Below are positions 484 through 29,577 of a DNA stretch of 34,218 bases, in pieces. A program made the translations under genes and the position numbers. A model generated the notes under the pieces. That model ran no database searches, was not told the origin of the DNA, and saw only the letters and a program-made list of their open reading frames with translations. Each line of letters starts with the position of its first letter. Position 1 is the first letter of the stretch. The DNA is from a virus: positions 1 through 34,218 of IMG/VR virus record IMGVR_UViG_3300048928_000418. The stretch is one strand, 5' to 3'.

Positions 484-497
484 CGGGAAAAACGGGG
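484..497 (+). promoter_or_regulatory. Recurrent intergenic element, copy 1
   Basis: CGGGAAAAACGGGG, one of seven matches to the consensus CGGGAAAAGYGGSS. It lies 68 bases upstream of the tail fibre ATG. I infer a phage-specific promoter or transcript leader; no standard -35/-10 pair is obvious here. Confidence 0.5.
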
Positions 498-516
498 CCG
501 GCCTGACGTAGGCCGG
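498..516. other. Stem-loop in the tail fibre leader
   Basis: CCGGCCT (498-504) pairs perfectly with AGGCCGG (510-516) around a GACGT loop. There is no T-run on the plus strand, so it is not a standard intrinsic terminator for the upstream gene. It directly follows element copy 1 and would sit in the fibre mRNA leader. Confidence 0.55.
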
Positions 517-551
517 ACTTGAGCATCGGGCTCCGATCTGACGAGCCCCGC

Positions 552-2189
552 ATGCCAACGACCCTCAATCCCAAGCTGACCGATGCCGGCAAAGCGGCAG
601 CGATCAACGCCAAGAACAACGGGCTGCAGCTGGCGATCACGCATGTGTCGCTGGGAACGGGGAAGTACGATTCGGCCACCACCGGCGCCAGCAAGACTGC
701 CATGGTGGCCCGCAAGGAATCCGTGGTCATCGCGCAGGGCGTCGTGACAGGCGCGGGCGGGTTCCGCATCAACATCCGCTTCCCGGCCTGGACGGGAACG
801 CCGAGCCCCTATGACGCGACCGAACTGGCGTTCTTCGCCGGCGACCCTGCGGCCGGCGGTGTGCTGGTCTGGGTCTACTCGCATCCCACCGACGTGCTCG
901 TGCAGCGCAGCGCAACCATCGACTACGTTGCGAGCTTTAACTTCCAGATCACCGAGGTGCCCAGCGGCTCGATCACGGTTGTGACGGACCCCACCGCGGC
1001 GCAGGCACTGGTGCTGATCGGCCTGCACGAGAACGCTACGAATCCGCACACGCAGTATGTGCGCAAGTCCGGCGACTTATCGACCGGCTTCCAGCGTGGG
1101 CCGCATGCCGCGGTTAACGACGACAGCGACGCCTACGCAACGACGGGCTTCGTGAAGCGGTCCGGCAAGACCTATCCGGCCCATGGCGGCATCGGCCTGT
1201 CCAACGGCCAGACCATCCTCCCCGGCCATGTCGGCAGCTGGTTCAGCCCGTCCAACGGCGCCACCGTCTACCTGCCGCTGGCAAGCTCGGTCCCGATCGG
1301 AAGCACTCTCAAGTTCGCAGTGAGTGTGCCGTCTGCGTTCATCAATGCCCAGGCCGGTGAGATCATTTATGGCGCCGGCCTTGTCGCAGGACAGCGCCAG
1401 CTGCTGGTGCTGGGGGAAACGGTCGAGGTGACCCGCAACGAAGCGGGCGCATGGCTAGTCACCGGCATTGGCGCGCGCATGCCTGCCGGCGCGGTGATGC
1501 ACTTCGCCGGCCAGACCCCGCCGGCCGGCTGGATGCCCATGAGCGGCGCGCTAGTGGAGCGGGCAGCGTACCCGGCACTGTGGGCGTACGCGCAGAGCCA
1601 GGGCCTTGTGTCCGAAGCGGATTGGATGGCCGGCTACTTTGGCCGGTTCAGCGTCGGCACCAACGGTGGCAACTTCCGAATCCCCGATGCGCGCGGTGTA
1701 TTCCTGCGATCGCTGGACGGCGGGCGCGGAATCGACCCGAACCGCCCGTGGGGCATGTACCAAGACCAGGTCAACGTCGCGCACGCTCACGGCGTCTACG
1801 ACCCCGGGCATGCCCACAGCGTCTACGACCCCGGCCACGTTCACGGCGTGAACGATCCCACACACGCCCACGGCGTGACCGTCAACGCAGCTGGCGATCA
1901 CGGCCACCGCTTGGGCATACAGCCAACGAACGAGGGTGGCAGCGGCGACCCGTGGGGCAGCGGCGGGCCGAACCGCCCCGAGGGTGGGATCTACTCCGCA
2001 TACACCGACGCCGCAGGCAACCACGCCCACTCAGCGTACGCCCATGGCGCGTACACCGGCATCTGGCTGGCCGCCGCCGTGTCGCAGACCGCCATCTATG
2101 CCGCAGGCACGGGCATCAGCATCGCAGCGGAAGGTGGCGCGGACGGCCACCCGCGCAACCTGGCCTATGTCCTGGCCATCCGGTTCTAA
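552..2189 (+). CDS. Tail fibre protein with tail-collar domain
   Basis: A 545-residue adhesin-type structural protein. The N-terminus, starting MPTTLNPKLTDAGKAA and running to about residue 170, matches the phage tail-collar fibre N-terminal family (DUF3751 type) that docks fibres to the baseplate. A tail collar domain follows from about residue 315, with signatures PPAGWMPMSG and NFRIPDARGVFLRS. After that comes a His-rich stretch of four nine-residue repeats (AHAHGVYDP type), then a C-terminus ending HPRNLAYVLAIRF, as in many fibre tips. HxH pairs in fibre tips such as T4 gp37 bind metal, so metal binding is likely here. I chose ATG at 552; a TTG at 519 would add 11 residues not typical of the family. 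The gene downstream may encode its chaperone. Confidence 0.9.
   Translation: MPTTLNPKLTDAGKAAAINAKNNGLQLAITHVSLGTGKYDSATTGASKTAMVARKESVVIAQGVVTGAGGFRINIRFPAWTGTPSPYDATELAFFAGDPAAGGVLVWVYSHPTDVLVQRSATIDYVASFNFQITEVPSGSITVVTDPTAAQALVLIGLHENATNPHTQYVRKSGDLSTGFQRGPHAAVNDDSDAYATTGFVKRSGKTYPAHGGIGLSNGQTILPGHVGSWFSPSNGATVYLPLASSVPIGSTLKFAVSVPSAFINAQAGEIIYGAGLVAGQRQLLVLGETVEVTRNEAGAWLVTGIGARMPAGAVMHFAGQTPPAGWMPMSGALVERAAYPALWAYAQSQGLVSEADWMAGYFGRFSVGTNGGNFRIPDARGVFLRSLDGGRGIDPNRPWGMYQDQVNVAHAHGVYDPGHAHSVYDPGHVHGVNDPTHAHGVTVNAAGDHGHRLGIQPTNEGGSGDPWGSGGPNRPEGGIYSAYTDAAGNHAHSAYAHGAYTGIWLAAAVSQTAIYAAGTGISIAAEGGADGHPRNLAYVLAIRF
1779..1886 (+). repeat. Four 27-bp tandem repeats in the tail fibre gene
   Basis: Units at 1779-1805, 1806-1832, 1833-1859 and 1860-1886 encode AHAHGVYDP, GHAHSVYDP, GHVHGVNDP and THAHGVTVN. 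The repeats are imperfect at the DNA level but keep the HxH spacing. Such an array could expand or contract by slippage and retune the fibre tip. Confidence 0.85.
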
Positions 2190-2192
2190 CCC

Positions 2193-2771
2193 ATGAAGAT
2201 CTTCAACTTCGACCGTATCACCGGATTTTTTCTACCCAATCCGGGGAAGCAAGATGGCTCCACAACCGCCGAGCCGTCTCCGATGGAGCCCGGGCGGTTC
2301 CTCGTGCCTGCGTTCTCCACCACGGACCCGGTGCCAGAGGTGCCTGCCGGGATGGTGGCGAGACGCGACCGCGAGGCCGGCCGCTGGGTGCTGGTGTCGC
2401 AGGCGCAGGCGATTGCAGAAACGAGCCCGCCCGAGCCTGAACTGCCCGAGAAAATCGTGCTTTGGCGCGGCGTGGAGCGCGCATTCGAGAACACGGTGGC
2501 CGTGGCCTTCGGCTTCGACAGCATGGACGATGCGGTCAGCTTCGCGAGCGAGCCCGAGGTGCCCCGCCTGCAGATTCTCGGCATCGCCCTGCGTGCGTGG
2601 CGCTCGAAGGTGCGCGCAGCTTTCGAGCAGCTGGTGGCCGAAGTGCGCGCCGGCGTGGCGAATGAACCGGCCAGCCCCGAAGACCTGCGCAGGCGCCTGC
2701 CAGCGTTCGAGCAGCCGGACACCACGCCGGACGCCCTGGACGCCTGGGTGAAGGCGCAGGGCGGCGCATGA
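2193..2771 (+). CDS. Probable tail fibre assembly/chaperone-like protein
   Basis: A 192-residue protein starting three bases after the tail fibre stop, the usual place for a fibre assembly chaperone. The N-terminus, MKIFNFDRITGFFLPN, is followed by a phrase that looks like 'VPEVPAGMVARRDREAGRWV', which resembles the short beta segment before the helical part of many tail fibre assembly proteins. The C-terminal half (from about residue 85) is helical and charged. I see no catalytic motif. The assignment rests on position and general composition rather than on a diagnostic motif; it could instead be a minor tail component. The stop overlaps the next start (ATGA), so the two are translationally coupled. 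Confidence 0.45.
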   Translation: MKIFNFDRITGFFLPNPGKQDGSTTAEPSPMEPGRFLVPAFSTTDPVPEVPAGMVARRDREAGRWVLVSQAQAIAETSPPEPELPEKIVLWRGVERAFENTVAVAFGFDSMDDAVSFASEPEVPRLQILGIALRAWRSKVRAAFEQLVAEVRAGVANEPASPEDLRRRLPAFEQPDTTPDALDAWVKAQGGA

Positions 2772-3067
2772 CGATCGCCGATCAGGCCTCGAACCGCTTC
2801 TACGCCCTGGTGCGTGACTTCGCGCTGACCACGCCCGAGTGGGCGCCGGCGGTGCGGTACTTCACCCAACCGGACGAGCGCCTGGACCTCACGCTGGTGT
2901 CGGCACGTGTTTATGGCACCCGTGACGAGTTTCTGACCATCCAGGCGGCCGCCGGCCTGGACTCGCCCGAAAGTGAACTGGTCGAGCAACTGCTGGTCCT
3001 GCCGGGCATGGATCAGCTGCGCGCGATGCGCCGCGAGGCCGGCTACGACGGCTACGAGGTGTTTTGA
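2768..3067 (+). CDS. Hypothetical protein (99 aa)
   Basis: A small acidic, mostly helical protein beginning MTIADQASNRFYALVRDF. No domain recognised, no signal peptide or membrane segment. Its start overlaps the upstream stop (ATGA at 2768-2771) and its stop overlaps the next start (TGATG at 3065-3069), so it lies inside a tightly coupled group with the possible fibre chaperone and the SWIM-like protein. This coupling suggests joint expression with the tail genes, but no function can be assigned. Confidence 0.7.
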   Translation: MTIADQASNRFYALVRDFALTTPEWAPAVRYFTQPDERLDLTLVSARVYGTRDEFLTIQAAAGLDSPESELVEQLLVLPGMDQLRAMRREAGYDGYEVF

Positions 3068-4685: not shown

Positions 4686-4699
4686 CGGGAAAACCGGCC
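4686..4699 (+). promoter_or_regulatory. Recurrent intergenic element, copy 2
   Basis: CGGGAAAACCGGCC, matching the consensus CGGGAAAAGYGGSS except for C at position 9. It is 49 bases upstream of the GTG start of the 1191-residue polyvalent protein gene and opens the antirestriction block. Confidence 0.5.
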
Positions 4700-4715: not shown

Positions 4716-4734
4716 CCACCGGGACACTGGCCCG

Positions 4735-7700
4735 GTGTCGAATACGCCAGTCACGCCAGATCAACCGTTCGCGCGCCTGCACATGGCCGCGAGCCATGCG
4801 GCTACGTCGCATTGGAACCTGACGCCTGAGCCCACACCGGCCCAGGCCAAGAGCGGCGACTACCCCAAGGGGCATGTGACCCTGCACGGCCTGCCGATCG
4901 CCATCGAGAACGTGCGCAACAGCGTGCGGCGCGGCGTCAGCGAGGTTGGCCGCGCATGGGAGAACCGCATGGCGGCCATGTACGGCGAGTTCGAGGGCAC
5001 AGTCGGCGCTGACGGCGATCCGGTCGACGTGTTCATCGGCCATTTCCCCGAGTCCCGCGCCGTCTGGATCATCAATCAGGGCTGGCCAGACGGCGGTTTT
5101 GACGAGCACAAGATCATGCTGGGGTTCCAGACCGAGCAGGCCGCCCGCGACGCCTACCTCATGTCTTTCGATCGCACGTGGCAGGGCCTGCGGTCCATGC
5201 ATCCGTGCACGGTCGACCAGCTGAAATGGTGGCTGGCCCAGGGCGACACGCGCACCCCCTTCACCCCCGCATCACTCCCTACAGGGCAACCATCTATGCA
5301 CAAGACCACCTGGACCCTCGACGCTGTACCTGTCGGCATGCCGCTGCAGAAGGTGCTGTACGACCTGCGCGTCGAGGACGGCAGCAGCGCACTGCTGCTG
5401 GACGCCGTGGACATGGCCGAACTTCTGGCGGACCCCGACGTGTCGCTGCTGCCTGCCGCGCTGCTGGACGCCCTGGTGGTCGAGGTCAACCGCATGACCG
5501 TGAAAATGGACCTGCTGCAGAAGGTCATGGACGCGGCCGGCGGCGAGGTGAAGACCAGCGGCTACCAGATCAGCGACCCGGTGAAGCGCCGCGGCACCAT
5601 GCAGGTCGCCGTCCTGTTTGCGCTGTCGGACGGCCAGACCGTCACCATCTGGTTCCACAACCCGGACACCACACCGGACAAGCTGATGCCGCTGGACGAG
5701 CTGATCAGCTGGAAGTGGATGCTCAACAAGAAGGACATCACCATCGTCGTCGCGCCCGAGCGCGGCAAGGACTTGAACATCCGCGAGGTGGCCCGGCGCA
5801 TCATGAAGCTGGCCGAGCGCAACAGCGCCGCTTTCGCCAAGGCGAACGCCAAGCTGGCCGAGCGCGTCGAGCAGGAGAAGGCTGTCGACGCCGAAATCGT
5901 GCAGCTGACCGGCCTGCTGCAGGGCCTGCAGACGCAGATCGCCGTGGCGCGCGAGCGCAAGAGCGAGCAGGCCGCCGAGGCCGCCGCCGCGCCGACCATC
6001 GAGCAGATCGCCGGGATCATCGGCAGTTGGTCCGGCAACCCGAAGGCTTGGACCGACCCCGCCGTGTCGAAGCAGATCGCCTACGCCGTGTCGAAGGGCT
6101 GGGCGCACCGCCCGTCTACGTCGCAGCTATCGTGGAGCGAGGCAGGCGTGGCCGCCTACCGGGCGGCCCTCGACCCGAAGGCAATCGAACCGCAGCCCGA
6201 GCCCATTGCCCGGTCGGGCACCGAGCAGGAGCAGCAGGCCGCCGATGCAGCGCTCCAGATGGCCGCCGGCGTGGTCGCCGATTTGGGCGGTACGTTCGAG
6301 GCCGAGAGCTTCGCAGCGCCGGGCACCATCGGGGCCTGGAGCTACGGCAAGGCCGAACTCGGACGGCACACGATCCGCCTGGGTGCTTCCGGCGGCGGCG
6401 TGGTGCAGGTCAACGGCCGGCCGTTTGACCCCAGCAACGAGGTCATCACCACCGCCGAGCAAGTCAAGGCCGCAATCCTCGCCATCGCACCGGACCTCGC
6501 GCCCGCGCCTGCGCCGGCCCCCGTGGCAGAGGTTGAGCCGGTCGCCGCGCCCGAGGTTGCCGCCGAGCCCGCGCCGGAAGCCGCCGCACTGTTTGGCAGC
6601 GAGGCGTTCCAGGCCGCCCTGGCTCAGTCGCCCGAAGCGCAGGCCACCGTCAAGACCATGGACGTGGCCGCGAAGGCCGCCGGCCTGACCGTCGACTGGT
6701 TCCACGGCACGGCTGTGCTCGACGGCGCCAACGCGCCGGCCGATGACGACGAGGAAGACGACGAGCCCGAGGAAGACGAGGGCGAGGACTTCGACGCCGA
6801 AGCGGAGTTCAAGCAGACGCCGGCCGACGATGAGCCCGAGCCCAAGCTGGACGGCGATTTTGTCGGCCACCCGTTCCGTGGCAACCAGCACGTCAACGCG
6901 GGCGAGGGCTCCAGCGCGGCCGTGAACGCGTCCAAGCGCGCCAAGGGTGCCGAGAAGCGCGGCGATGCCAAGGGCACGGCCAAGGCCCACAAGGCCGCCT
7001 ACCACTCGCACAAGGCCGCCCTGGTCGGCGCCAAGGGACAAGCCCGCAAGTACCACAAGACCATGGCCGCCTTCCACGGCCGCCGCAGCGGCGCGAAGAT
7101 GCTGGACGACGCGGCCGAGCACGATGGCGTGTTCATCGGCTACATCAAGCGGGGCGGCTACGTGATCGGCCGCGCCATGGTGGGCGACGACGGCAAGGCA
7201 ATGGTCTACGTCGGGGGCTCGGGCACGCGGCGCGTGACCTACGTGTCCCCGGTGGACAACGAAATTCGCGCGGCCATGTGGAGCGACGACGACGCGCCGC
7301 GCATGATCGGCTGGCTGCTGGCCGCGATCACGCCGGCCGCGCCCGCCGCTGCGCCGGCACCGAAGGGCGACATCAGCTACACCACAGGCGACATGTTCAC
7401 GACCTTCCTGCCCGACACGGCGGCCGGTGAGGACGCGTGGCGCGTGCTCAACGCCACCGAGGGCGCTGAGAACGGCAAGGTGCTCAACGAGCACGCCGCC
7501 AGCACCATCGAGCAGCTGCGCGCCACCGGTTACACCGTGGTCCTGGCCGCACCGGCTGACGACATCGATACCGATGCGCTCGCTGCTGCCCTGGCCGAGC
7601 CCGAGGCGGAGCCCGTCGCTGCAGGGGAGGCGGTGGCCGCAGCCGCCGAGCCGGAAGTGCCCGAGTTCGTGCGGCGGCGGGTCGCCGACGCGCTGGGCCA

Positions 7701-8310
7701 GTTGAACGAAATCCGTGCGGGCGTGGACGGCGCCATCGACCTTGACCGCCGGATGGGCGGAAACGGCCGCTATGAGAACGACGCCGTGCAGAACCGTGCC
7801 CAGGACATCCACGCCGCCCAGCGCACCCTGGCCGAGTTCCGCCAGCACGCCGGCGAGAAAGGCATCGACGCCGAGGCGTTCATCACGTCGCTAGGCGGCG
7901 AGCCGAGTTTCGCCCTGAGCGCCGCCGCCCAAGAATGGGCGGCGCCGGTGGTCGCACAAGCTGCTGCCGAGCCCGCAACCGCAACCGAAGAGGCCCCGAC
8001 CGTGGAACCCGTCACGCCCGAACCTGCCGCCGAGCCGGCCGCGCCCGCTGTCGCTGCGGCCTCTGAAGCGCCCGCCGTGGCCGCGCCGGCCGCAGACGAC
8101 AGCGAGGACCGCGCCTACCTTGAAGCCCTGCTGAACGGCACCGCTGACCTTCTGGGCGCCGACGTGTTCGAGCGTCTGGAGCCGATGTTCGCGAAGTACG
8201 ACGGCAACCCGGACACGCCCGAGATGGAGGCGCTGCTGACGCGCGCGGCCGAAGCCTACGGGGATGCAGCCCAGGAAGCCGCGAAGTCTGCGCTGGCGAC
8301 CCCCGCATGA
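4735..8310 (+). CDS. Large polyvalent protein: pyrophosphatase-like + DarA-N-like domains
   Basis: A 1191-residue multidomain protein. Residues about 41-150 form an inorganic-pyrophosphatase-like domain of the phage polyvalent type: DYPKGHVTLHGLPIAIEN, then DGDPVDV (93-99), which fits the family I metal-binding signature, then DEHK (123-126). A second start-like Met at 188 (nt 5296) opens a region leading to a DarA-N-like domain (about 272-360; DGQTVT at 299-304, ELISWKWMLNKKD, APERGKDLN). A coiled coil follows (about 362-420), then Ala/Pro/Glu linkers, GHPFRGNQH (about 711-719), a Lys/His/Ala-rich helical stretch, and a GDMFTTFLPDTAAGEDAW region (about 885 on). DarA is a P1 head-internal antirestriction protein, so virion delivery is inferred. 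The start is GTG (4735) with GGGA upstream; ATG 4783 is an alternative. The stop overlaps the next gene (ATGA). Confidence 0.85.
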   Translation: MSNTPVTPDQPFARLHMAASHAATSHWNLTPEPTPAQAKSGDYPKGHVTLHGLPIAIENVRNSVRRGVSEVGRAWENRMAAMYGEFEGTVGADGDPVDVFIGHFPESRAVWIINQGWPDGGFDEHKIMLGFQTEQAARDAYLMSFDRTWQGLRSMHPCTVDQLKWWLAQGDTRTPFTPASLPTGQPSMHKTTWTLDAVPVGMPLQKVLYDLRVEDGSSALLLDAVDMAELLADPDVSLLPAALLDALVVEVNRMTVKMDLLQKVMDAAGGEVKTSGYQISDPVKRRGTMQVAVLFALSDGQTVTIWFHNPDTTPDKLMPLDELISWKWMLNKKDITIVVAPERGKDLNIREVARRIMKLAERNSAAFAKANAKLAERVEQEKAVDAEIVQLTGLLQGLQTQIAVARERKSEQAAEAAAAPTIEQIAGIIGSWSGNPKAWTDPAVSKQIAYAVSKGWAHRPSTSQLSWSEAGVAAYRAALDPKAIEPQPEPIARSGTEQEQQAADAALQMAAGVVADLGGTFEAESFAAPGTIGAWSYGKAELGRHTIRLGASGGGVVQVNGRPFDPSNEVITTAEQVKAAILAIAPDLAPAPAPAPVAEVEPVAAPEVAAEPAPEAAALFGSEAFQAALAQSPEAQATVKTMDVAAKAAGLTVDWFHGTAVLDGANAPADDDEEDDEPEEDEGEDFDAEAEFKQTPADDEPEPKLDGDFVGHPFRGNQHVNAGEGSSAAVNASKRAKGAEKRGDAKGTAKAHKAAYHSHKAALVGAKGQARKYHKTMAAFHGRRSGAKMLDDAAEHDGVFIGYIKRGGYVIGRAMVGDDGKAMVYVGGSGTRRVTYVSPVDNEIRAAMWSDDDAPRMIGWLLAAITPAAPAAAPAPKGDISYTTGDMFTTFLPDTAAGEDAWRVLNATEGAENGKVLNEHAASTIEQLRATGYTVVLAAPADDIDTDALAAALAEPEAEPVAAGEAVAAAAEPEVPEFVRRRVADALGQLNEIRAGVDGAIDLDRRMGGNGRYENDAVQNRAQDIHAAQRTLAEFRQHAGEKGIDAEAFITSLGGEPSFALSAAAQEWAAPVVAQAAAEPATATEEAPTVEPVTPEPAAEPAAPAVAAASEAPAVAAPAADDSEDRAYLEALLNGTADLLGADVFERLEPMFAKYDGNPDTPEMEALLTRAAEAYGDAAQEAAKSALATPA

Positions 8311-9739: not shown

Positions 9740-9753
9740 CGGGGAAGGTGGCC
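9740..9753 (+). promoter_or_regulatory. Recurrent intergenic element, copy 3
   Basis: CGGGGAAGGTGGCC, 71 bases upstream of the ATG at 9811. It is followed by TCCGGTG, close to the TCTCCCGGTG that follows copy 5 at 18447, so similarity extends beyond the 14-base core. It begins 14 bases after the DdrB-like gene stop. Confidence 0.5.
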
Positions 9754-9810
9754 TCCGGTGCGGCGGCCCTGCCGCCGACCATCCACATCTTCGAAACAGG
9801 GGAGGACGGC

Positions 9811-10095
9811 ATGCAATGGCACGCCCAGGTGACGCAGCTCACGCTGCGGCTGTACGACGAGCCGGCGGGCTACGAGCAGCGCAAGAGGTTCAAGGCCGTG
9901 GCCACGGTGTTCATGCTGGGCGACACCCAAGCCTTCATCCACGCGTTCCTTCGCTCTGACGGCACGAGGCAGATCGCACCGAACGAGTGGCGCGCCCTGC
10001 GCCGGCTACTGCATGACGAGCACGGTATTGAACTGGTGCACTCGGAGCGTCACGGTCAGGACCGCGCGTTTAACACCGCACCGGCGCCATTGTAG
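9811..10095 (+). CDS. Small hypothetical protein (94 aa)
   Basis: The start at ATG 9811 is fixed by a strong ribosome binding site, AGGGGAGGA at 9798-9806. The frame stays open upstream, but only as a shadow of the DdrB-like gene. The product begins MQWHAQVTQLTLRLYDEP and contains GDTQAFIHAFLRSDGTRQ and WRALRRLLHDEHGIELVHSE, an alpha/beta pattern with a basic helical C-terminal half. I do not recognise the family. It sits between two antirestriction genes and has its own copy of the recurrent element, so it may be an independently expressed member of that block. Confidence 0.7.
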   Translation: MQWHAQVTQLTLRLYDEPAGYEQRKRFKAVATVFMLGDTQAFIHAFLRSDGTRQIAPNEWRALRRLLHDEHGIELVHSERHGQDRAFNTAPAPL

Positions 10096-10547: not shown

Positions 10548-10578
10548 AGCGGCGCCCAAAACGGCGCCGCTTTTCTTT
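10548..10578 (+). terminator. Intrinsic terminator after the membrane protein gene
   Basis: A perfect nine-base stem, AGCGGCGCC (10548-10556) and GGCGCCGCT (10563-10571), with loop CAAAAC, followed by TTTCTTT. It starts 22 bases after the stop of the membrane protein gene. Confidence 0.85.
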
Positions 10579-10647: not shown

Positions 10648-10661
10648 CCGGAAAAGCCGTC
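10648..10661 (+). promoter_or_regulatory. Recurrent intergenic element, copy 4 (weaker)
   Basis: CCGGAAAAGCCGTC, three positions off the consensus CGGGAAAAGYGGSS. It lies 72 bases upstream of the DarB-like ATG and downstream of the sigma-70-like promoter, so this gene may have two modes of expression. Confidence 0.4.
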
Positions 10662-10719
10662 CCGCGCGCGGCCAGGCGCCGGCTGACCATCAACGCATTC
10701 ACCTGGGGTAACAGAAAAC

Positions 10720-13700
10720 ATGGATCAGCTTGGCGGCACCGCGCCCATCACGAAACTGGCGCGGTTGAAGATCGACAACGAATTGATCGGGCTGGCCCGG
10801 GAGCGGCTGGCGCTAAAGGAGGGCATGACCCTCTACGCGTTCAAGGTGGCGCGCATCGCCAGCCGCATCCTTGTGCTGCTGCGCCAGCGCGGCGCCGACC
10901 TGTCCACGCAGTCGCGCGTCCTGGCCGCATTCGCGTCCGACGCCGCGCCCCAGGTGCCTGCCAAGCCCCGCGCGGCCACGGGGCAGTTCTACGAGTTCAA
11001 CCCCAACCGCAAGCACAGCGAGCGCAAGAAGGACAACGCCGCCGCCATTGCGCTGCTGCGCGACATCGCCGCCGGCACCATCACCGCCGACAGCCTGGAC
11101 GAGGCGCAGAAGCAGGCCCTGGCCAAGTACTCGGGCACGGGCGGCAACCTGATCGGCACCGATGGGCTGGCCGGCAGCGCCTACGAGTACTACACGCCGA
11201 AGCCGATCGCCGATGGCATGTGGTCGCTGCTCGGCGAGTTGGGCTTCAAGGGCGGGAAGGTCGGCGACCCGTGTGCGGGCGTCGGCATCTTCGGCGCCAC
11301 CGCGCCGGCCAACGTCGCCATGGAGTCCGTCGAACTGAACGAGACTTCCGGCCGCATCAACCAGCTGGTGAACGGCGGCCCAAGCTACAACGCGATCGTC
11401 AGCCCGTTCGAGGCCGTTGCGAGCCGCACGCCGGACGAAATCTGGGATGCGGTGATCAGCAACGTGCCGTTCGGCGGCGTGCACGATCGAGGCTCGAACC
11501 GCAAGATCGACCCGAAGTACCAAGACCAGCCCCTGGAGACGTATTTCATCCTGCGCTCGCTGGAGAAGCTGCGGCCGGGCGGTCTGGCCGCCTTCATCGT
11601 GCCGCCGCGCGTGGTCAGCGCCAAGAGCGGCCGCGAGGAACAGCTGCGCATCGCCGCCAGCTACATGGCCGAGTTCATGGGCGCCTACCGCCTGCCGAAC
11701 TCCGTCTTCGGCACGGCCGACGCGGACACCATCACCGACGTGATCGTGTTCAAGAAGTTCGGCCGGGCGGCCGCGCAGAAGATCGAAGAACTGCGCACGC
11801 AGAACCCGTCCGCGCTGATCGCGGCCAACGTGCTGTGGGACGAGTTCACGACCGGCCGGTACTTCGCCGGCGAGGGCAAGCGCTACGTGCTGGGCGAGTT
11901 CGTCGCCAAAGACCCGAGCAAGTTCCGCGACGTGGACCGCGTGGTGTCTGACGCCAGCGTGGCGAACATCGGCAAGCTCCTGCGCAAGTTCCCGGGCTCG
12001 CGCATCGACTGGAAGGCCCTGGAGGCCGAGGAAACCGAGCCGATCAGCTACAACGAGGGCGACAGCCTCACGCTCGCAGGCCAGACCCTCGAACTGCGCG
12101 GCGGCGCCTGGGTGCCGGTCGGCAAGGCCGCCAGCGACTCCACGTTCGACGCCTACGGCCCGCTGCTGAGCACGCCGCTGCAGGCCGTGTCGGCCAAGGT
12201 CGGCTGGGACCAGGCCATCGGCTACCTCGAATACCTGCACGGCCGCTCCATGGACCTGGATGTGCCCGTGTGGCTGCGCCTGGCCGCGACGGACGTGGCG
12301 CGCGAGCCGGCCGCGGAGCGCACCCGGCTGTGGTCGGCCCTGACGGCCGGTTGTGCGGTGGTCGACGTGATGCAGGCCCACGCCGCCGAGCCGCAGTTCA
12401 ACTACCTCGAAGAGTTCGCCGTGTTGTCGGACACTCTGGTGGCGACCGCGCAGACCGTGCTCAAGGCCCCGACCAAGTTCTCGCGCCAGTCGAAGGCCGC
12501 GTTTATGAAGGCGCGCATCGTCTACAGCCGCCGCGACGGCTTCGCGCCGATCTGGAAGGGCGAGGGCGCGGCCGGCGTGGACATCGGCCGCCTGGACGAG
12601 GAAGCCCAGGTGCGCGCGCTGCAGTATGCCGCCGGCGCGGCAATCGATGTCAAGGCGCTCAAGGGCGTCTACGGCGAGGACTTCGACGTGATGGCCGAGG
12701 ACGGCTGGTGCCTGGACGCGGCCGGCGAGAGGGCCACGAAGGCCGACGACTACTACACCGGCAAGTATGCGGACTTCCTGCGCCGCATCGATGCCGAAAT
12801 CTCGGCATCGACTGGCCCGCTGCGCGAGAAGCTGCTGCGCCAGCGCGCCATGGCCGAGGAACGCGTCGAGCGCGTGGACCCGCAGGCCCTGCGCTACAAC
12901 CTGTTCAGTCCGTTCGTGACGATCGAAGAGAAGGCCGAGTTCATGCGGCGCTTCATGCACCCGGGCTTCGCTGTCGGCGTCAACAACCTGGGCAACCCCT
13001 ACATCGTCTACGAGGGGCCGAGCGGCAAGAACGCGACCACCGAAGAGAACCTGATGTCGCGCATGGCGGCCTACGTGTCCGGCAACGCCGGCGGCGTGGG
13101 CGCGCGCAGCCTGTCGCTGGCCGGCAAGGAAGTGGGCCTGCCCGACCGTGACGCGCTGAAGCTGTTGAGCAACTACGCCAAGCGCCTGGACACCCAGTTC
13201 GACGGCTGGGTGAAGGCCAACCCGGTCATCACGTCGCGCATGGACGCGACGGCGAACGACCCGGAGCGCCTGTACTTCACCGAGGTGGACGACAACACGC
13301 CGCTGGGCATCCCGGGCATGAACCCGGAGCTGACGCTGCACGGCTACCAGAACGCATACGTGCGCAAGCAGGCGCGGAGCTTCGGCGGCCTGAACGGCTA
13401 CGACGTGGGTCTGGGGAAGACCTTCACCGCGCTGGCCTGCGTGCAGTATGTGCAGTCCATCGGCGTGAAGAAGAAGACCATCTTCGTCGTGCCCAACGCC
13501 GTGCTGTCGAACTGGCGTCGCGAGGCCACGCGCGCCTACCTGAACACCGACGACTGCCTGTTCATCGGTCTGGACATCAACCAGAAGACCCTGAAGGCTA
13601 CCGTCAACCCGGCCAACTACGCCCGCGACTTCACGCGCGTGCTGGAGAACCGCCACCGCAAGATTTTCTGCACGCTGGAAGCGTTCTCGTCGCTGCCGCT

Positions 13701-18427: not shown

Positions 18428-18433
18428 TGTATA
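18428..18433 (-). promoter_or_regulatory. -10-like box for the small regulator, possibly leaderless
   Basis: TATACA on the minus strand, ending eight bases before the ATG at 18419. A start site at the usual distance would fall at or next to the start codon. No convincing -35 is visible. Confidence 0.35.
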
Positions 18434-18446
18434 TGGAAACGGTAAT

Positions 18447-18460
18447 CGGGAAAGGTGGCC
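18447..18460 (+). promoter_or_regulatory. Recurrent intergenic element, copy 5
   Basis: CGGGAAAGGTGGCC, 41 bases upstream of the portal ATG and 28 bases upstream of the divergent small regulator start. It is followed by TCTCCCGGTG, similar to the sequence after copy 3. Confidence 0.5.
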
Positions 18461-18487
18461 TCTCCCGGTGGCCGGGGGCAGGGGACC

Positions 18488-20203
18488 ATGAAACGTCTCG
18501 CAATTCCGCCCAGGCCATCACACATGCAGCAGCCGCCACCGAAGCAGAAAATCCGATGGGTGCCGGCCGCCGTTCGGAGGTTCTTCGGCCGTGACCAGGT
18601 GGGGCAGGTCGAGCAGATCGGCCTGCAGTACTCCGACTACACCACGACGGCCGCGCTGACGGGTGGCAGCGGCCCCAACGGCGCTCGCTCGCGCCAGCTG
18701 ATCTACCAGAAGTACCAGCAGATGTCCGCCGACCCGCTGGTGTCCGGCGCGGTCCGCCTGCATGTCACATCGGCCCTGGGCGGGCACGAGACATCGGGCG
18801 ACCTCGTGTTCATCGAAGCCACGGCCGAGGCCAAGAAGGACGACAAGCTTGCGGCCATGGTCAAGGAACTGAGCGACGAGTTGGCGCCCATCTTCAACCG
18901 CATGGCGTTCCCTGCGGCCTACAACGCGGCGATCTACGGCGACGCCTACGCGCGGCTCTACACGAAGGACCGCGTGGGCGTCACGGACATGCGGATCGAT
19001 GAGTTGATGATGCCGGCGCTGTGCATCCCCTTCGAGCAGGGCAACAAGACGCGCGTGGTGCGCATCGCTACGGGCTCCAAGCTGCACGCGACGCTGACCA
19101 TGGACCAGGTCGCGCGCGTGAAGATGCCGCGGATGCTGTACACGCCGCAGCCCCTGGCCATCGAGAAGGCGTGGCGCGACGACATCGAGCAGGACGACGC
19201 CGACAAGCTGCAGCTGATGCCCTCGCTGGTCGGCGGCTCGTTCCTGGCCGACGCGGAAACCCAGTACAACAACTTCGCCGCGGCCCTGGCCGGGCTTGTC
19301 GGTCAGCGCATCCTCGACTCGATCGATGAGTCCATCTTCTCGGCCAACGTGACCGGGATGACGAAGGAGCAGCGGCAGGTCTTCCTGACATCGCTGGAGC
19401 GCATGCTGCAGCGGTCCAAGAAGATCGCAGAGGAAGCGCTGAAGTCGGGCCAGTCGGTGCTGCAGCGCATCCGGCACATCCTGCCGGTGTGGGGCGAGAA
19501 GCAGGTCGTGGGCGTTCAGGGCGTCAACTCTGGCGGCGCCACGGGCACGGGCCGCGCCGGCAACCTGGGCGTCGATGACGTGATGTTCCACGCCAAGCTG
19601 CTGTGCGGCGCGCTGGGCATCGACATCTCCATGCTGGGCTTCGCGGACCTCATGAGCGGTGGCCTGGGCGATGGCGGGTTCTTCCGCACCTCGGCCCAGG
19701 CGGCCGAGCGCTCGCGCGCGCTGCGCGTGTCCCTGGCGGAGTTCTTCTACCACGTCATCGACGTTCACCTGATCAAGAAGACCGGCACCTCGTTCGCCGA
19801 ATCGGAGCGGCCATTCAAGGTCAACTTCTACGGCACGATCAGCGCGCTGGAGGCCGAGCGCGCCAAGACCCTGCTGGACGCCGTGAACTCGGCGATGCTG
19901 ATGGCCCAGTGCTTCGACCTGGTGAAGAACATCGGCATGGAAGAGGCCGCCATGGCCAACCTGTTCGAGAAGGTCATGAAGCTCGACGCGGAAGACGCGA
20001 AGATGTACGCCAAGGCGATCGCCAAGGCCAAGAAGGAGGCTGACGCGAAGGAGGCGGCGGCCAATGCAGGCGGCGCCTTCGGCGGGGGCGGTGCGCCGGC
20101 GTTCGGTGACGGTGACGACGACGAGCCCGGGGGCGAGCCCATGCCAGGCGGCAAGGCCAAAGCCGCGCCCGGCGCGCCCAAGCCGGTCCCGGTCGGAGCG
20201 TGA
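18488..20203 (+). CDS. Portal protein
   Basis: A 571-residue protein with the features of myovirus portal proteins: ADPLVSGAVRLHVTSALGG near residue 80, where portal N-terminal domains describe non-overlapping domains of the ring, then IFNRMAFPAAYNAAIYGDAY, a long alpha/beta core, DDVMFHAKLLCGALGIDISM, and FFRTSAQAAERSRALRVSLAEF before a long C-terminal helix. The acidic Gly/Pro tail (GDGDDDEPGGEPMPGG) is low complexity. It would form the dodecameric ring at the capsid vertex through which DNA is packaged. ATG 18488 is preceded by AGGGGA; ATG 18524 is an alternative. It begins a plus-strand run with the next two genes, one base apart and then overlapping. Confidence 0.8.
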   Translation: MKRLAIPPRPSHMQQPPPKQKIRWVPAAVRRFFGRDQVGQVEQIGLQYSDYTTTAALTGGSGPNGARSRQLIYQKYQQMSADPLVSGAVRLHVTSALGGHETSGDLVFIEATAEAKKDDKLAAMVKELSDELAPIFNRMAFPAAYNAAIYGDAYARLYTKDRVGVTDMRIDELMMPALCIPFEQGNKTRVVRIATGSKLHATLTMDQVARVKMPRMLYTPQPLAIEKAWRDDIEQDDADKLQLMPSLVGGSFLADAETQYNNFAAALAGLVGQRILDSIDESIFSANVTGMTKEQRQVFLTSLERMLQRSKKIAEEALKSGQSVLQRIRHILPVWGEKQVVGVQGVNSGGATGTGRAGNLGVDDVMFHAKLLCGALGIDISMLGFADLMSGGLGDGGFFRTSAQAAERSRALRVSLAEFFYHVIDVHLIKKTGTSFAESERPFKVNFYGTISALEAERAKTLLDAVNSAMLMAQCFDLVKNIGMEEAAMANLFEKVMKLDAEDAKMYAKAIAKAKKEADAKEAAANAGGAFGGGGAPAFGDGDDDEPGGEPMPGGKAKAAPGAPKPVPVGA

Positions 20204-23198: not shown

Positions 23199-23444
23199 TC
23201 AGGCGCCGGGCGCTGGCGACTTCGTGGCGGGGATGCGCACCGTGTAGCCAGCGGCTTCCAGCGCCGGCACATCCTCGGCGTGCACGGCCCAAAACGGGCC
23301 AGGCCGCACGTTGTCGCCCATGTGCATGATGGCCCGCGCCGGCAGCGTGGTCATCATCTTCTTCATGTGCCTGTCGTCGTTGAACGCGATGCAGTCGTGG
23401 CGCATGACGCCTTTGGCCTGCAAATCGCGCAGCAGGAAATTCAT
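23199..23444 (-). CDS. Small hypothetical protein (81 aa)
   Basis: The last gene of the minus-strand operon, beginning MNFLLRDLQAKGVMRHDC, with GVMRHDCIAFNDDRHMKKMM and AVHAEDVPALEAAGYTVR. Three Met/His-rich stretches stand out, but no cofactor motif is clear. The frame is open upstream, but the start at 23444 overlaps the stop of the upstream gene by four bases (ATGA), which is typical of coupled genes. Its purpose is unknown. Small minus-strand phage genes of this sort are often early host-takeover factors. Confidence 0.65.
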   Translation of the reverse strand: MNFLLRDLQAKGVMRHDCIAFNDDRHMKKMMTTLPARAIMHMGDNVRPGPFWAVHAEDVPALEAAGYTVRIPATKSPAPGA

Positions 23445-24418
23445 GGCTTCCGCCCTCCATCTTTGGCGGCCTGGGCTTCGTCGCAGTTCACCGAGTTCAA
23501 CCAGCCCGAGCTGGTCCGGCTCGCCTGCTCTGAGGGTAGAAATTCGGCGGCGTCCGCAAGCGGCTTGGTCTTCTTTTTGCGCTCGGCCTCGGCCAAGAAG
23601 TCTTCCCAGGATGCGTGCCCAGGGACGAACTCGGCTTCGACCACGCCGCCGTCCAGCCTCCATTGCAGCGCGAGATGGCCCTCGTGGGTCATGAACACGA
23701 CGGCATCGGCCAGTCGGAGCGCTGGCCCAGTCGCGCGCAGAAGTGCCAGAGACTCCTGATCCAGGGGTTGTCCGCCGTTGGCCCCGTCCCAGCCTGTTTT
23801 CGATGTGGCGAACGCCGCAATGCGCTGCTCCTGGTCTGCCGTCAACGACATGTCTGGTGCCTCGCGCCGCCGCAGCTCATTGCAGAATCTGCCCCACGAG
23901 CCCCAGGTCGGAAACACGGGCGGTGCAACGTCATCGATCAGCGGCGTGCGCACGGCGCCGGCCTCGGAAGCCAGTTCGGCGTACTGCCCGTCGCTCAGAT
24001 CGCCATCGACCGCTACCACCACCTGTGCCTGGGGATCGGAAACCTGGGCGGCCGTCTTGTGCTCGGCAAGCAGGTTCTCGACGCCCCAGACGATCTTCTG
24101 GTGAAACACTTTCGCATCGACGGTGGGCGCGTTGTAGCCACCCGCGCCAAGCCAGCAAGCCAGCTGCCGCAGCACCTGCTCGGCTTCGGTCTCGTTCTCG
24201 GCGTAGTTCATGAAGTAGCCCGGACGCAGCGGGTCTTGCATGGGGTCAATGCCTTTCGACGGCTCGGCCGCTGGCGCAGATGCGAGTGCGTCGTGCGCGG
24301 CCAGCAGTTCCCGCGCGAACTCCAGATAGCAGATGGTCGTGGCGTTGGGCTCCACGATGCGATGCTTGTAGTACAGACCGCGGATCAGGTCATCGCTCAG
24401 CGATTCACGGGGTTGCAT
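23441..24418 (-). CDS. Hypothetical protein with GWDGxxG-type C-terminal domain
   Basis: A 325-residue acidic protein starting MQPRESLSDDLIRGLYY, with AGGAG seven bases before the ATG. The N-terminal region contains CYLEFARELLAAHDAL, a short helix common in phage accessory proteins. The C-terminal region has KTGWDGANGGQPLDQESLAL followed by FMTHEGHLALQWRLDGGVV, a pattern seen in a widespread uncharacterised domain with GWDG and a 'G-x-L-x-x-W' strand in phage and mobile elements. No catalytic residues are evident. Its start overlaps the upstream gene by 14 bases. Confidence 0.6.
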   Translation of the reverse strand: MQPRESLSDDLIRGLYYKHRIVEPNATTICYLEFARELLAAHDALASAPAAEPSKGIDPMQDPLRPGYFMNYAENETEAEQVLRQLACWLGAGGYNAPTVDAKVFHQKIVWGVENLLAEHKTAAQVSDPQAQVVVAVDGDLSDGQYAELASEAGAVRTPLIDDVAPPVFPTWGSWGRFCNELRRREAPDMSLTADQEQRIAAFATSKTGWDGANGGQPLDQESLALLRATGPALRLADAVVFMTHEGHLALQWRLDGGVVEAEFVPGHASWEDFLAEAERKKKTKPLADAAEFLPSEQASRTSSGWLNSVNCDEAQAAKDGGRKP

Positions 24419-24830
24419 GGGAATCTCCTGGGGTGGCGGGCGGCTGGCAGTGGGGGCCGAGCATGGCGCGCAGCTTGCCCAGGTCCTGCCCGCAGCGCGC
24501 GTAGGCGTCGCTGAAGGCGTCTCGCTCGACGCCGTAGTAGTAGCAAGGTGCCTCGGCCGTCAGCGAGTAGTTGTGCGCCAGCGTGAGAAAGCCGCGCAGG
24601 AACTCAAGCGGGACCGATGTGTAGCCCTCGGGGGTGTGAGCGAGCGCAGCACGAGCGCTGCTGCGCGCTGCATCCAGTTCGTCAAGCGCCTCCTGCATGC
24701 CTGGGATGGCAATGGCGGCGCTGTAGGCGGCGGCGTCAAGCAGGCTGGCGCGGCGGTCGCATGCGGCGTCCAATCGCTGCAGGGCGGCCCGCAGGTCCAG
24801 TGCCGCACCTTGTTCTGTTTGGTTGGTCAT
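24405..24830 (-). CDS. Hypothetical helical protein (141 aa)
   Basis: Begins MTNQTEQGAALDLRAALQRL and is mainly alpha-helical: RRASLLDAAAYSAAIAIPG and EALDELDAARSSARAAL. A segment follows with SVPLEFLRGFLTLAHNYSLT and CYYYGVERDAFSDAYARCG. The frame is open upstream to 25055, but the start at 24830 overlaps the stop of the upstream gene by four bases (ATGA), so I take it as the real start. No family recognised. It overlaps the next gene by 14 bases, consistent with a coupled operon. Confidence 0.6.
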   Translation of the reverse strand: MTNQTEQGAALDLRAALQRLDAACDRRASLLDAAAYSAAIAIPGMQEALDELDAARSSARAALAHTPEGYTSVPLEFLRGFLTLAHNYSLTAEAPCYYYGVERDAFSDAYARCGQDLGKLRAMLGPHCQPPATPGDSHATP

Positions 24831-25165
24831 GACGTTTCCAGGGATTTTGCGGGCGCTGGTTCTGCCGGAAGCGGCCGCAGCATCTCGTCTTTGGCGTCGT
24901 CGCCAGGGTCGCGGATGGGGCGCAGCCAGCAGTCCGGGACTGCGCCATAGCGGGTCTCGCGCGTCTCGCCTCCTCGCAGGGCTGCGCGCACAGGCGGCCC
25001 CAGAAGTTTGACGACCCACGCAGGGGTGGCCGGGTCGCCGGCGGCAGCGCGCCATCCGTCTGGCAGCGCATAGCGCTTGAGCGGCTCGCGGCGCAGCACC
25101 TCCACCATCCGGCCGTACAGGTGTTGGTGAACGATGCGGGCGAGGTCGCCGGGCTTGCAGTTCAT
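24827..25165 (-). CDS. Small conserved phage-type hypothetical protein
   Basis: 112 residues beginning MNCKPGDLARIVHQHLYG. The opening CKPGDLA and the later VPDCWLRPIRD are phrases I recognise from small accessory proteins in phages of high-GC Proteobacteria; no function is known to me. It has WVVKLLGPP in the middle and a Pro/Ala-rich charged tail. The ribosome binding site GGAG is 10 bases upstream. The stop overlaps the next gene's start (TGA/ATG). The short beta-like N-terminus suggests a small SH3-type barrel, which is inference. Confidence 0.6.
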   Translation of the reverse strand: MNCKPGDLARIVHQHLYGRMVEVLRREPLKRYALPDGWRAAAGDPATPAWVVKLLGPPVRAALRGGETRETRYGAVPDCWLRPIRDPGDDAKDEMLRPLPAEPAPAKSLETS

Positions 25166-25199
25166 GGTGTTCTTCTCCGGGTCGGCAGGGGGTAGAAGG

Positions 25200-25748
25200 T
25201 CAGGCGGTTAAGCGCTTGTGGACCGGCGTCGCGGATGTGGCGCTGGCCATGGCCACGATCTGTCGGGCCCGGGCTCGCTCCTCGGCGGTGGGCTCATCAG
25301 ATGGCTCGCTCGACGTGTCGCGGAACAGCGCGTTCGCCTGCACAAAGGCAGAGAAGGCAATCTCGAGATGGTCGGCGAGCGCGGGCCGCAGGGCCTCAAT
25401 GTGCAGCTCGATCTCCACGGCCTCGGCAGGCGTTGTCTCGATGCCGAGCAACTTCGGCTTGTCGTGGCTGCGGTAGCTGTCGAACTGGCTGTTCAACACC
25501 TTGGCGGCGATCTGGCGTATCAACCGCTTGTCGAGCGTGCCGCGCGCGGCGAACCACCGAAGTTCGCGCTTTTCGCCGATCAGGTCGCGCATGGTCATGC
25601 CGTGCCTGTCCAGCATCTTCTCCAGCATGCGCTGGGCGTTCTCCTTCTCGCCGCCTTCGCCGCGCTCGGCCAGGGCCAGCAGCTTGCGCATGCGCGCTTG
25701 GACCTTCGCGTCGGCCGGGCTCGTGGTGGTGCTCATGTGCTGTGCCAT
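25200..25748 (-). CDS. DUF2786-like protein
   Basis: 182 residues. Residues about 18-55 match the DUF2786 pattern found in phage and mobile element proteins: RMRKLLALAERGEGGEKENA, then QRMLEKMLDRHGMTMRDLIG. The rest contains RWFAARGTLDKRLIRQIAAK and a helical C-terminus. DUF2786 proteins have no proven activity; association with nucleic acid handling is often suggested. I used the ATG at 25748; ATG 25736 is an alternative, and neither has a good ribosome binding site. It lies 27 bases after the stop of the first gene of the minus-strand operon. Confidence 0.65.
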   Translation of the reverse strand: MAQHMSTTTSPADAKVQARMRKLLALAERGEGGEKENAQRMLEKMLDRHGMTMRDLIGEKRELRWFAARGTLDKRLIRQIAAKVLNSQFDSYRSHDKPKLLGIETTPAEAVEIELHIEALRPALADHLEIAFSAFVQANALFRDTSSEPSDEPTAEERARARQIVAMASATSATPVHKRLTA

Positions 25749-25775
25749 GTGTCAGCGGGTAGGGAGGGGCGGCGA

Positions 25776-26357
25776 TCAGCCGCCGAAATACTTGCGGAAG
25801 CACACGGGCCCGATGAAGCGCTCGATGCTCTCGTCGGCCGTGAGTTCGAGGCCGCAGATGGAGCAGTTGCCCGTGCGCTGCCCGTAGGCCTTCGCGGCGG
25901 CGGCCGGGTCGGATGCCGCGGCGGCCACGCGCGCCTGGGTGGCATCGTCGCAGTCGCGCGAGGCGATGAACTTGCCGCCCATGATCTTGCCCAGGTAGGT
26001 GCCTTCCTCGCCCTTGCCTTCGGTCACGTAGATGCCGCCCTGGTTCTGGCCCTTGATCACGGCCTTGAACGTGAAGGTGTCCAGGCGCAGCATGGGCTTC
26101 TTGACCATGTTGCCGCGCGCCACGTCGAACCGGCGCTCAATCTCGGCCACGTCCATGGCGAGCGGGGCAGGGCGCGCGAGGTTGCTGCGCACCGCCTCCA
26201 GCTGCCTCTCCGTCAGGCCACCGAAGGATTCGAGCGACTGGGCCAGCGACAGCGCGAACGGGTTGCTTTCCAAGTTCGAACCGATCCACTCCATTTCGTC
26301 CGGGTGCTCGCAGGCCCAGGCGGTGGCTTTGGCGGCGGCGGTCTGGGTGGCTTGCAT
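25776..26357 (-). CDS. DUF6011-like zinc-ribbon-type protein, first gene of the minus-strand operon
   Basis: 193 residues, with GGAG six bases before the ATG at 26357. The C-terminus (163-193) reads GNCSICGLELTADES and then IGPVCFRKYF, a short Cys motif (C165, C168, C186) like DUF6011 proteins in which 'GPxC' ends a zinc ribbon. The middle contains FTFKAVIKGQNQGGIYVTEG and GTYLGKIMGGKF, typical of the same proteins. The N-terminal half is helical. It is the promoter-proximal gene of a six-gene minus-strand operon that interrupts the late genes. The role is unknown; nucleic acid or protein binding is likely. Confidence 0.7.
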   Translation of the reverse strand: MQATQTAAAKATAWACEHPDEMEWIGSNLESNPFALSLAQSLESFGGLTERQLEAVRSNLARPAPLAMDVAEIERRFDVARGNMVKKPMLRLDTFTFKAVIKGQNQGGIYVTEGKGEEGTYLGKIMGGKFIASRDCDDATQARVAAAASDPAAAAKAYGQRTGNCSICGLELTADESIERFIGPVCFRKYFGG

Positions 26358-26435: not shown

Positions 26436-26449
26436 CTGGAAAAGCGGGG
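26436..26449 (+). promoter_or_regulatory. Recurrent intergenic element, copy 6
   Basis: CTGGAAAAGCGGGG, one mismatch to the consensus CGGGAAAAGYGGSS, 82 bases upstream of the tail tube ATG. GGGCGGTG follows, and the CGGTG is shared with copies 3 and 5. Confidence 0.5.
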
Positions 26450-26517
26450 GGCGGTGCGCGCGCTGCGAATCTGAGACTCAGCCGCATCGCACACAAGCCA
26501 CCAGAGGGCCACCGCCA

Positions 26518-27009: not shown

Positions 27010-27015
27010 CCCGCC

Positions 27016-27480: not shown

Positions 27481-27481
27481 T

Positions 27482-29016: not shown

Positions 29017-29032
29017 TCAACAGGAGCACATC

Positions 29033-29515
29033 ATGAAGAACCTCATTTTCAACGTCGAGGCCGCGGGCCAGAACGACAAGGCAATCCGCGACGCCACGCG
29101 CATGTTCCTGCGCGGCGGCGCCCAGGTGGTCGATGCGAAGGTCGCGCCCACGGTGATGAAGCGCGCCGGCATCCAGTTCCGCAACATCGACTTCACGTTC
29201 GCCGATGGCCAGACCGTGACCATGGCCGTGAAGATCACCGGCGACGTGTTCGAGGTGCGGATCAACGGCGGCGTGGTGCCGCTGCGCCAGCAGGATGACC
29301 ACGTGAAGGCGATCGCCGAGATTGCCGCCCAGCTCGACAAGAAGCGCGCCGCGTTCCAGCGCGCAATGGCCCGCGTGAAGGTACCTCTGCCGCCAAGCGT
29401 GCGCGTGTCGCGCAGCACGCTCTTGGCCGCCAAGATCGAGCGCCGCGACGGGCTGAAGGAAGCCGTTGCGCTCGCGGAAAGCGAACTCGCAGAGCTGACC
29501 TCCAGCCCCGAATAG
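29033..29515 (+). CDS. DarA-N-like protein, paralogue of the polyvalent domain
   Basis: 160 residues, with GGAG before the ATG. The central region, FTFADGQTVTMAVKITGDVF then VRINGGVVPLRQQDDH (about 54-90), has the DGQTVT strand (58-63) and INGxxxPL strand of the DarA N-terminal family. It is followed by helices KAIAEIAAQLDKKRAAFQRA like the coiled coil after the same domain in the 1191-residue protein, where DGQTVT is at 299-304. So the phage has two copies, one free-standing here between the spike and the capsid gene. P1 DarA is made early and packaged in the head, and this small copy next to capsid genes fits a head-internal protein (inference). A terminator follows. Confidence 0.65.
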   Translation: MKNLIFNVEAAGQNDKAIRDATRMFLRGGAQVVDAKVAPTVMKRAGIQFRNIDFTFADGQTVTMAVKITGDVFEVRINGGVVPLRQQDDHVKAIAEIAAQLDKKRAAFQRAMARVKVPLPPSVRVSRSTLLAAKIERRDGLKEAVALAESELAELTSSPE

Positions 29516-29536
29516 GCGCGCTCGCTCGCGCATCCA

Positions 29537-29564
29537 GGCCCGCACATCGCGGGCCTTTTCGTTT
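29537..29564 (+). terminator. Intrinsic terminator before the major capsid gene
   Basis: A perfect seven-base stem, GGCCCGC (29537-29543) and GCGGGCC (29549-29555), loop ACATC, then TTTTCGTTT. It separates the DarA-N-like gene from the capsid transcription unit. The recurrent element copy 7 starts at its last T. Confidence 0.85.
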
Positions 29565-29577
29565 GGGAAAAGTGGGG
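29564..29577 (+). promoter_or_regulatory. Recurrent intergenic element, copy 7
   Basis: TGGGAAAAGTGGGG, one mismatch to the consensus CGGGAAAAGYGGSS, immediately after a terminator and 86 bases upstream of the capsid ATG. A terminator followed directly by this element supports a role in starting transcription. Confidence 0.55.

Follow-up and report, generated by a model that had tools for sequence, protein, structure and literature searches.

What is the repeated 14-base element that stands ahead of the virion genes in the viral record IMGVR_UViG_3300048928_000418, and what might read it? The stretch analysed here, called the window, is the complete IMG/VR record of 34,218 bases, classed as linear and probably a fragment of a phage genome. 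Matches to protein families of P1-type myophages cover portal, tail sheath, tail tube, baseplate wedge, tail fibre, Ulx-like and Hdf-like proteins, and none of the 27 window frames examined was recognised as a terminase, replication or immunity gene. The portal protein shares 50% identity with its Xanthomonas phage Rb1 counterpart and about 25% with P1 Prt over the matched part, while the DarB-type and capsid proteins of Rb1 each align to the window at 43%. A first-pass annotation had noticed seven copies of the element between genes and had proposed a phage-specific late promoter element or the transcribed start of a phage-directed message. We consider it likely that the element is the distal, activator-binding box of a late promoter that carries a −10 hexamer and no recognisable −35. 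The layout consists of [C/T]GGAAAA at about −47 to −42, a gap of exactly 29 nucleotides (nt; sometimes 28 in relatives) and a sigma-70-type −10. Sequence statistics establish the two-part architecture, the fixed spacing, the position ahead of virion-gene blocks, the recurrence in relatives and the frequent start codons at the predicted +1. The late-promoter half of the earlier proposal thus gains support from the −10 at a fixed distance, from the sites heading virion-gene blocks and from their recurrence.

We confirmed all seven 14-mers on the plus strand, and our gene calls bear out their intergenic position. The features, one per line, are as follows (ORF, open reading frame).

484-497, plus strand: distal box of copy 1, core GGAAAA at 486-491, preceding the tail-fibre gene 552-2189
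521-526, plus strand: −10 hexamer of copy 1, GAGCAT, 29 nt after the box, predicted start at about 533
4686-4699, plus strand: distal box of copy 2, GGAAAA at 4688-4693, preceding the internal head/polyvalent protein gene 4735-8310
4723-4728, plus strand: −10 hexamer of copy 2, GACACT
9740-9753, plus strand: distal box of copy 3, GGGAAG at 9742-9747, preceding a 94-residue ORF, 9811-10095
9777-9782, plus strand: −10 hexamer of copy 3, GACCAT
10548-10571, plus strand: hairpin resembling an intrinsic terminator, upstream of promoter 4
10648-10661, plus strand: distal box of copy 4, GGAAAA at 10650-10655, preceding the DarB-like gene 10720-17421
10685-10690, plus strand: −10 hexamer of copy 4, GACCAT
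18447-18460, plus strand: distal box of copy 5, GGAAAG at 18449-18454, preceding the portal gene (ORF to 20203)
18484-18489, plus strand: −10 hexamer of copy 5, GACCAT
26436-26449, plus strand: distal box of copy 6, GGAAAA at 26438-26443, preceding the tail tube gene (ATG at 26518)
26473-26478, plus strand: −10 hexamer of copy 6, GAGACT
29536-29556, plus strand: hairpin resembling an intrinsic terminator, directly upstream of promoter 7, which agrees with the earlier remark that copy 7 follows a terminator
29564-29577, plus strand: distal box of copy 7, GGAAAA at 29566-29571, preceding the major capsid gene (ORF to 31344, likely start TTG at 29662)
29601-29606, plus strand: −10 hexamer of copy 7, AAGAAT

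The core of the box in the window is GGAAAA (generally GGRAAR), complete in five copies and replaced by GGAAAG and GGGAAG in one each. Positions 2 and 6 of the hexamer are A and T, respectively, in 7/7 copies, and the first base is G in six copies and A in one, never T. The first-pass annotation was mistaken in reporting no consistent paired −10; a −10-like hexamer accompanies every copy, unusually far away, and no consensus −35 was found at any of the seven. Its distances of 41–86 nt to the downstream genes needed some revision. We measure 49–98 nt from the start of the element to the start codon, and the value of 41 returns for copy 5 if the portal begins at 18488; a start at 18524 is likelier, since 18488 would overlap the copy 5 −10. 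A second GGAAA word, TATATGGAAAC, lies just upstream of copy 5 at 18430-18440 and is shared with the relative L012. One might also read the copies as intrinsic terminators of the minus strand, a hairpin followed by CTTTTCCCG on the opposite strand, and copy 1 does offer a terminator-like site there (516-498). Terminator scoring picked out this one copy of the seven, however, and a terminator does not predict a hexamer at 29 nt, which makes the idea exceedingly improbable.

How tightly are box and hexamer linked? The plus strand of the window holds 45 GGRAA words, and nAnn[ACT]T stands 29 nt after exactly seven of them, which are the annotated copies (7/7 against 0/38 of the others; hypergeometric 2e-8). 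The narrower nAnn[AC]T lies exactly 29 nt after the core in all seven copies and in at most one of them at each of 59 other offsets. On the minus strand one of 27 GGRAA words has the hexamer at 29 nt, at 16202 inside the DarB-like gene. As the spacing was first found in relatives, its test in the window is independent. Scanned with a consensus derived from these same seven copies, the window gives five matches with at most one mismatch on the plus strand and none on the minus strand, where order-2 Markov sequence predicts 0.05 per strand. Relaxed to three mismatches the 14-mer shows no enrichment (31 matches, 32.1 expected) and was rejected as a scanning tool. A position weight matrix (PWM), the check that the annotation had recommended, was iterated on the G+C-rich loci kept for it; the matrix drifted to 495 sites and was rejected, and six of the seven copies were among its first twelve window hits. 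Two other promoter classes were tried and set aside. Sigma-54 promoters (TGGCACG-N4-TTGCW) gave 47 loose matches against 70 expected, none overlapping a copy, and ordinary sigma-70 promoters (TTGACA 16–18 nt upstream of the −10) matched their consensus twice in the window, on the minus strand each time.

Does the arrangement recur? Relatives were taken as portal-containing loci from viral and genome collections; many of them sit in bacterial genomes, presumably as prophages. The labels type I, type II and P1/D6-like are our own and were assigned by portal identity and box. CGGAAAA offsets were counted in 91 of 138 loci, leaving out the distant Moraxella/Psychrobacter, the P1/D6-like and the enterobacterial loci, a few others and the window's own L001. 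On the plus strand, TANNNT follows 180 occurrences at offset 29 in 36 cases, at offset 28 in eight and at any other offset in 0–3; among 100 minus-strand occurrences there is no peak. Near the expected portal start, 36 of 50 loci carry GGAAAA and 27 carry CGGAAAA. GGAAAA-N28/29-TANNNT is present in 12 of 20 records. In nine of these it occurs two to six times, all on one strand, against 0–1 matches of a reversed-pattern control; G007, G012 and G014 (the last a 4.4-Mb bacterial genome) are uninformative because the control matches about as often as the pattern. With the first hexamer base left free and a looser box, clear peaks at 29 emerge from the single records G001, G002, G005, G008, G009, Rb1 and the window.

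An unsupervised ranking of all 6-mers 0–54 nt upstream of TANNNT, in which only identical contexts were merged, was headed in the type I set by GGAAAA at 29, with a count of 32 (mean 0.89), and in the type II set by GCAAAC, also at 29, with 22 (mean 0.37). In type I loci GGAAA occurs 36 times at 29 (0–7 elsewhere) and GCAAA three times (1–6 elsewhere); at the non-redundant type II sites GCAAA occurs 15 times at 29 (0–3 elsewhere) and GGAAA not at all. P1/D6-like loci show no spacing peak at 29 for either word, and their own 6-mer peaks, probably produced by near-identical records, were left unused. In a neighbouring observation, the type II portal promoters of L097, L098 and L103, within the group L096-L103, have a GCGCAAA box mirrored by TTTTGCGC about 3 nt before the −10, so that an inverted repeat spans the spacer. 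The Moraxella/Psychrobacter relatives L045-L052 give a weak GGAACA-N27-TANNNT signal at 11 sites, partly orthologous copies, which is possibly a third type of box.

The same promoters can be followed through the whole of phage Rb1, scanned on both strands with GGRAA, a spacing of 28 or 29 and nAnn[ACT]T. Of the 21 matches listed, 14 on the plus strand lie outside genes or at a gene edge and four inside genes (two of these being one overlapping pair); the minus strand has three, of which two fall within genes. Nine of the 14 stand within 60 nt before genes of the virion or the lysis block, namely those for prohead protease, h33, capsid, h41/endolysin, tail tube (spacing 28), DarA-N-like protein, internal head protein, h60 and tail-collar fibre. 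The promoter of the Rb1 ortholog of the internal head/polyvalent protein gene (L003:6755) is arranged like copy 2. Four of the remaining five are not near a same-strand gene, and one overlaps the annotated start of a gene for a helix-turn-helix (HTH) protein. The late promoter directly upstream of the HTH gene that this last match suggested is not general, there being none near the gene in 35 loci; a cluster of matches 300–400 nt into the HTH gene is presumably coding sequence.

Where would transcription begin? After sites less than 14 mismatches apart over 68 nt had been merged, an ATG opening at least 40 codons follows the hexamer at 6 nt in 22 and at 7 nt in 13 of 131 spacing-29 matches, and eight other spacings give no such peak at 6–7 nt. 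In an enlarged set, merged in the same way, 40 of 177 matches have such an ATG 6–7 nt after the −10, preceded by C in 34. Shine–Dalgarno words accompany two of these 40 against 36 of 90 matches with a leader. An ATG at this distance puts its A at the predicted +1, from which leaderless late mRNAs are expected; in many relatives the start codon itself seems to be where transcription begins. The genes concerned include those for portal, internal head protein and a 95-residue protein of phrog_4683. Upstream of the last, in 40 sequences in which the box was not required and near-identical ones were merged, the largest conserved block besides C at −1 runs from −47 to −42 relative to the ATG, with G at −47 in 26/40 and A at −43 in 25/40. 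In the window a start codon at the predicted +1 occurs in copy 2 only (GTG 4735, exactly 6 nt after GACACT); the remaining six promoters would yield mRNAs with leaders. By eye, the Rb1 portal (L002:26942) shows a degenerate box, AGGAACA, then GAGAAT after 29 nt and an ATG another 7 nt on. That ATG lies a few codons into the annotated gene, and the annotated Rb1 portal start may thus be upstream of the real one.

These positions also bear on the other half of the earlier proposal, in which the box would be an RNA element, the 5′ start of a transcribed leader. The element is intergenic, and hairpins follow some copies, as such a leader might have it. Against this, the 40 nt upstream of the copies contain no invariant column, the element is followed at a fixed distance by a −10, and in relatives an ATG often comes 6–7 nt after that hexamer. 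The GG precedes the predicted start by about 47 nt; the idea of a transcribed start is left unsupported, and we regard it as very improbable.

What, then, would act at a distal box? Promoter melting by sigma-70 needs A at −11 and T at −7. Both are present here, which makes host RNA polymerase with the main sigma factor the likely reader of the −10. The box lies just upstream of the usual place of a −35, and a phage protein bound there would contact the polymerase and recruit it late in infection, replacing the missing −35 contact. A phage sigma factor, which the annotation had suggested looking for, did not turn up in the relatives (sigma-70 region 2, PF04542, in 0/21 records, with the control matching 10/14 genomes), and single-subunit RNA polymerase (PF00940) was likewise found in 0/21 records, with its control also silent. 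A DNA-binding activator fits better. XRE proteins, to which the candidate described below belongs, are often repressors, and the box might instead be an operator through which a repressor keeps late genes silent in the prophage, a state in which many of the relatives presumably exist. We think this unlikely: a repressor at −47 would not need its distance kept at exactly 29 nt in promoters that lack a recognisable −35, and the constancy of that distance argues for protein contact rather than plain repression.

The nearest known system is the late promoter of P1 (PMC8198154 and PMC10695390), and we asked whether the window holds a diverged version of it. PMC10695390 describes the Lpa site as a conserved inverted repeat of 9 bp in 11 late promoters of P1 and gives lpa, pacA, pacB as the order of the genes. 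The P1 annotation likewise shows late promoters without a −35 and with a TANNNT-type −10, and places lpa, gene 10 of P1, just before pacA. In favour of a diverged version stand the relationship to P1, the overlapping gene sets (portal, capsid, tail-fibre and head-protein blocks) and the similar −10. However, the −22 repeats of P1, which resemble AAGTNACTT, stand 4 nt upstream of the −10, and the window contains a single match to AAGTNACTT with at most one mismatch (15879, in the DarB-like gene) where 2.45 are expected. Lpa (phrog_1704) was found in 10/10 P1/D6-like records and in 0/22 records of the present clade, the window not being among those searched, and P1/D6-like loci, as noted above, lack the peak at 29. 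That the window's promoters are a diverged form of the Lpa type is therefore very unlikely.

Which protein might bind the box in place of Lpa? We compared 82 of the 92 annotated Rb1 features with nine near-complete relatives. The HTH_31 protein of Rb1 was found in all nine, as were many virion and function-unknown proteins; among the conserved Rb1 proteins scanned with Pfam (some were not), it is the sole one with a DNA-binding domain above the cut-off. In eight of the nine its gene precedes the terminase genes by no more than about 2 kb. A wider scan found 103 relatives; of the 80 retained, 60 loci were examined, 52 of them with terL downstream on the same strand, and 37 were aligned. The HTH profile matches 19/22 clade records and 0/10 P1/D6-like records, the three misses being shorter records of 34, 42 and 60 kb. 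No XRE-type regulator gene was found in the 34-kb window record, which is itself without a recognised terminase. The AlphaFold model (predicted local distance difference test 89.4, predicted template-modelling score 0.55) consists of an XRE domain followed by two long helices, the first of 62 residues. The nearest solved folds to the HTH domain are C.AhdI and SinR (E 0.005), which match little beyond that domain, and the nearest sequences to it are the ICEBs1 XRE regulator (1e-10) and SinR. The XRE proteins of types I and II differ in the presumed recognition helix, as far as the helix can be assigned by inference. Our candidate for the activator that would bind the box is this XRE-type protein, whose C-terminal part is a long helical region and whose gene in relatives closely precedes those for terminase; its identification is less certain than the proposed action of some phage protein at the box.

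It is possible, if somewhat doubtful, that the promoter is read correctly and that its box is bound by some other factor, supplied by the host or by another of the conserved phage genes. Several function-unknown proteins are also conserved in 9/9 relatives, the HTH gene is in an apparent operon with the terminase, and its covariation with the box rests on two clades. Against another factor stands the mutual exclusion of the HTH protein and Lpa in the 32 records searched, together with their same place relative to the terminase. The box also differs by phage clade (GGAAAA or GCAAAC) at a constant spacing, which argues in particular for a phage-encoded reader.

Several results weigh against an activator-dependent late promoter or against its proposed regulator. 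L004 and L012, the loci with the highest portal identity to the window, are among the 14 of 50 that lack GGAAAA near the expected portal start; these two have GGGAAA words instead. The loose pattern gives no peak at 29 in the single records G006 and G012 and a weak one in G003, and no box at 29 came out of the 6-mer scan for the Pseudomonas loci L024, L041 and L044 or for a small set around L005, L101 and L043. A blind scan of 5-mers upstream of nAnn[ACT]T in the window alone does not rank GGAAA among its top eight, so that the significance of the window result rests on the spacing taken from relatives. Copy 3 was not listed by the iterated PWM. In the 40-sequence phrog_4683 footprint the −10 is blurred and does not stand out, because the hexamer lies 6 or 7 nt from the ATG. 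As to the regulator, eight of the 19 profile hits are distant (E 5e-19 to 1e-30), no solved fold matches at E 0.001 or better, and the link between HTH protein and box is correlative and confounded by shared ancestry. Being co-oriented with the terminase, the protein could serve packaging, or it could be a repressor.

Taking both sides together, we give even weight for and against the following fuller picture. In a large P1-related clade, mostly of proteobacteria, late genes would be run by an XRE activator that is unrelated to Lpa and encoded at the place of lpa. Box and activator would have diverged together (GGAAAA/GCAAAC) while the 29-nt geometry stayed fixed, and about a quarter of the GGAAAA-type promoter matches (40/177) would start exactly on the AUG, with leaderless mRNAs then serving for key virion proteins, the portal among them.

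Viewed in this way, the system would be an activator-dependent phage late promoter, a known kind, which differs from its nearest known case, P1, in geometry, box and regulator. As in P1, the promoters head late virion operons with homologous genes, lack a −35 and have a TANNNT-type −10, although with G or A as its first base in the window, and the candidate regulator gene adjoins the terminase genes. Unlike in P1, the box is at about −47, 29 nt rather than 4 nt from the −10, its sequence is unrelated and in relatives many start codons lie at the predicted +1; the candidate regulator, with its XRE HTH domain and helical region, has no similarity to Lpa by BLAST, the only comparison made. The late promoters of phage Mu involve a different activator, C, and a different site. 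They share with the present ones the need, at several late promoters of host RNA polymerase, for a phage activator (PMC4461284). Leaderless promoters of Deinococcus-Thermus likewise have a −10 directly before the start codon (PMC12340547); ours belong to phage late genes, mostly proteobacterial, and have an added distal box. The controller (C) proteins of restriction-modification systems activate transcription. One of them, C.AhdI, is together with SinR the nearest solved fold to the candidate's XRE domain, at the weak E of 0.005 given above; the candidate has an extra helical region of about 110 residues. A literature search covering titles and the openings of abstracts, with most subscription papers outside its scope, found no description of this promoter class.

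By the box and its spacing, late promoters become readable across a broad group of phages and prophages, among them very G+C-rich ones in which a −10 is hard to see. If the regulator is right, relatives of P1 would have exchanged their late switch as a unit of regulator, box and geometry. The promoters also predict leaderless translation of the portal, internal head and other virion proteins.

One further region of the window lies between its late genes. From 23199 to 26357 long open frames occupy the minus strand, and a Pfam scan of five of them left four without a family and gave the fifth, 25200-25748, a sub-threshold match to DUF2786.

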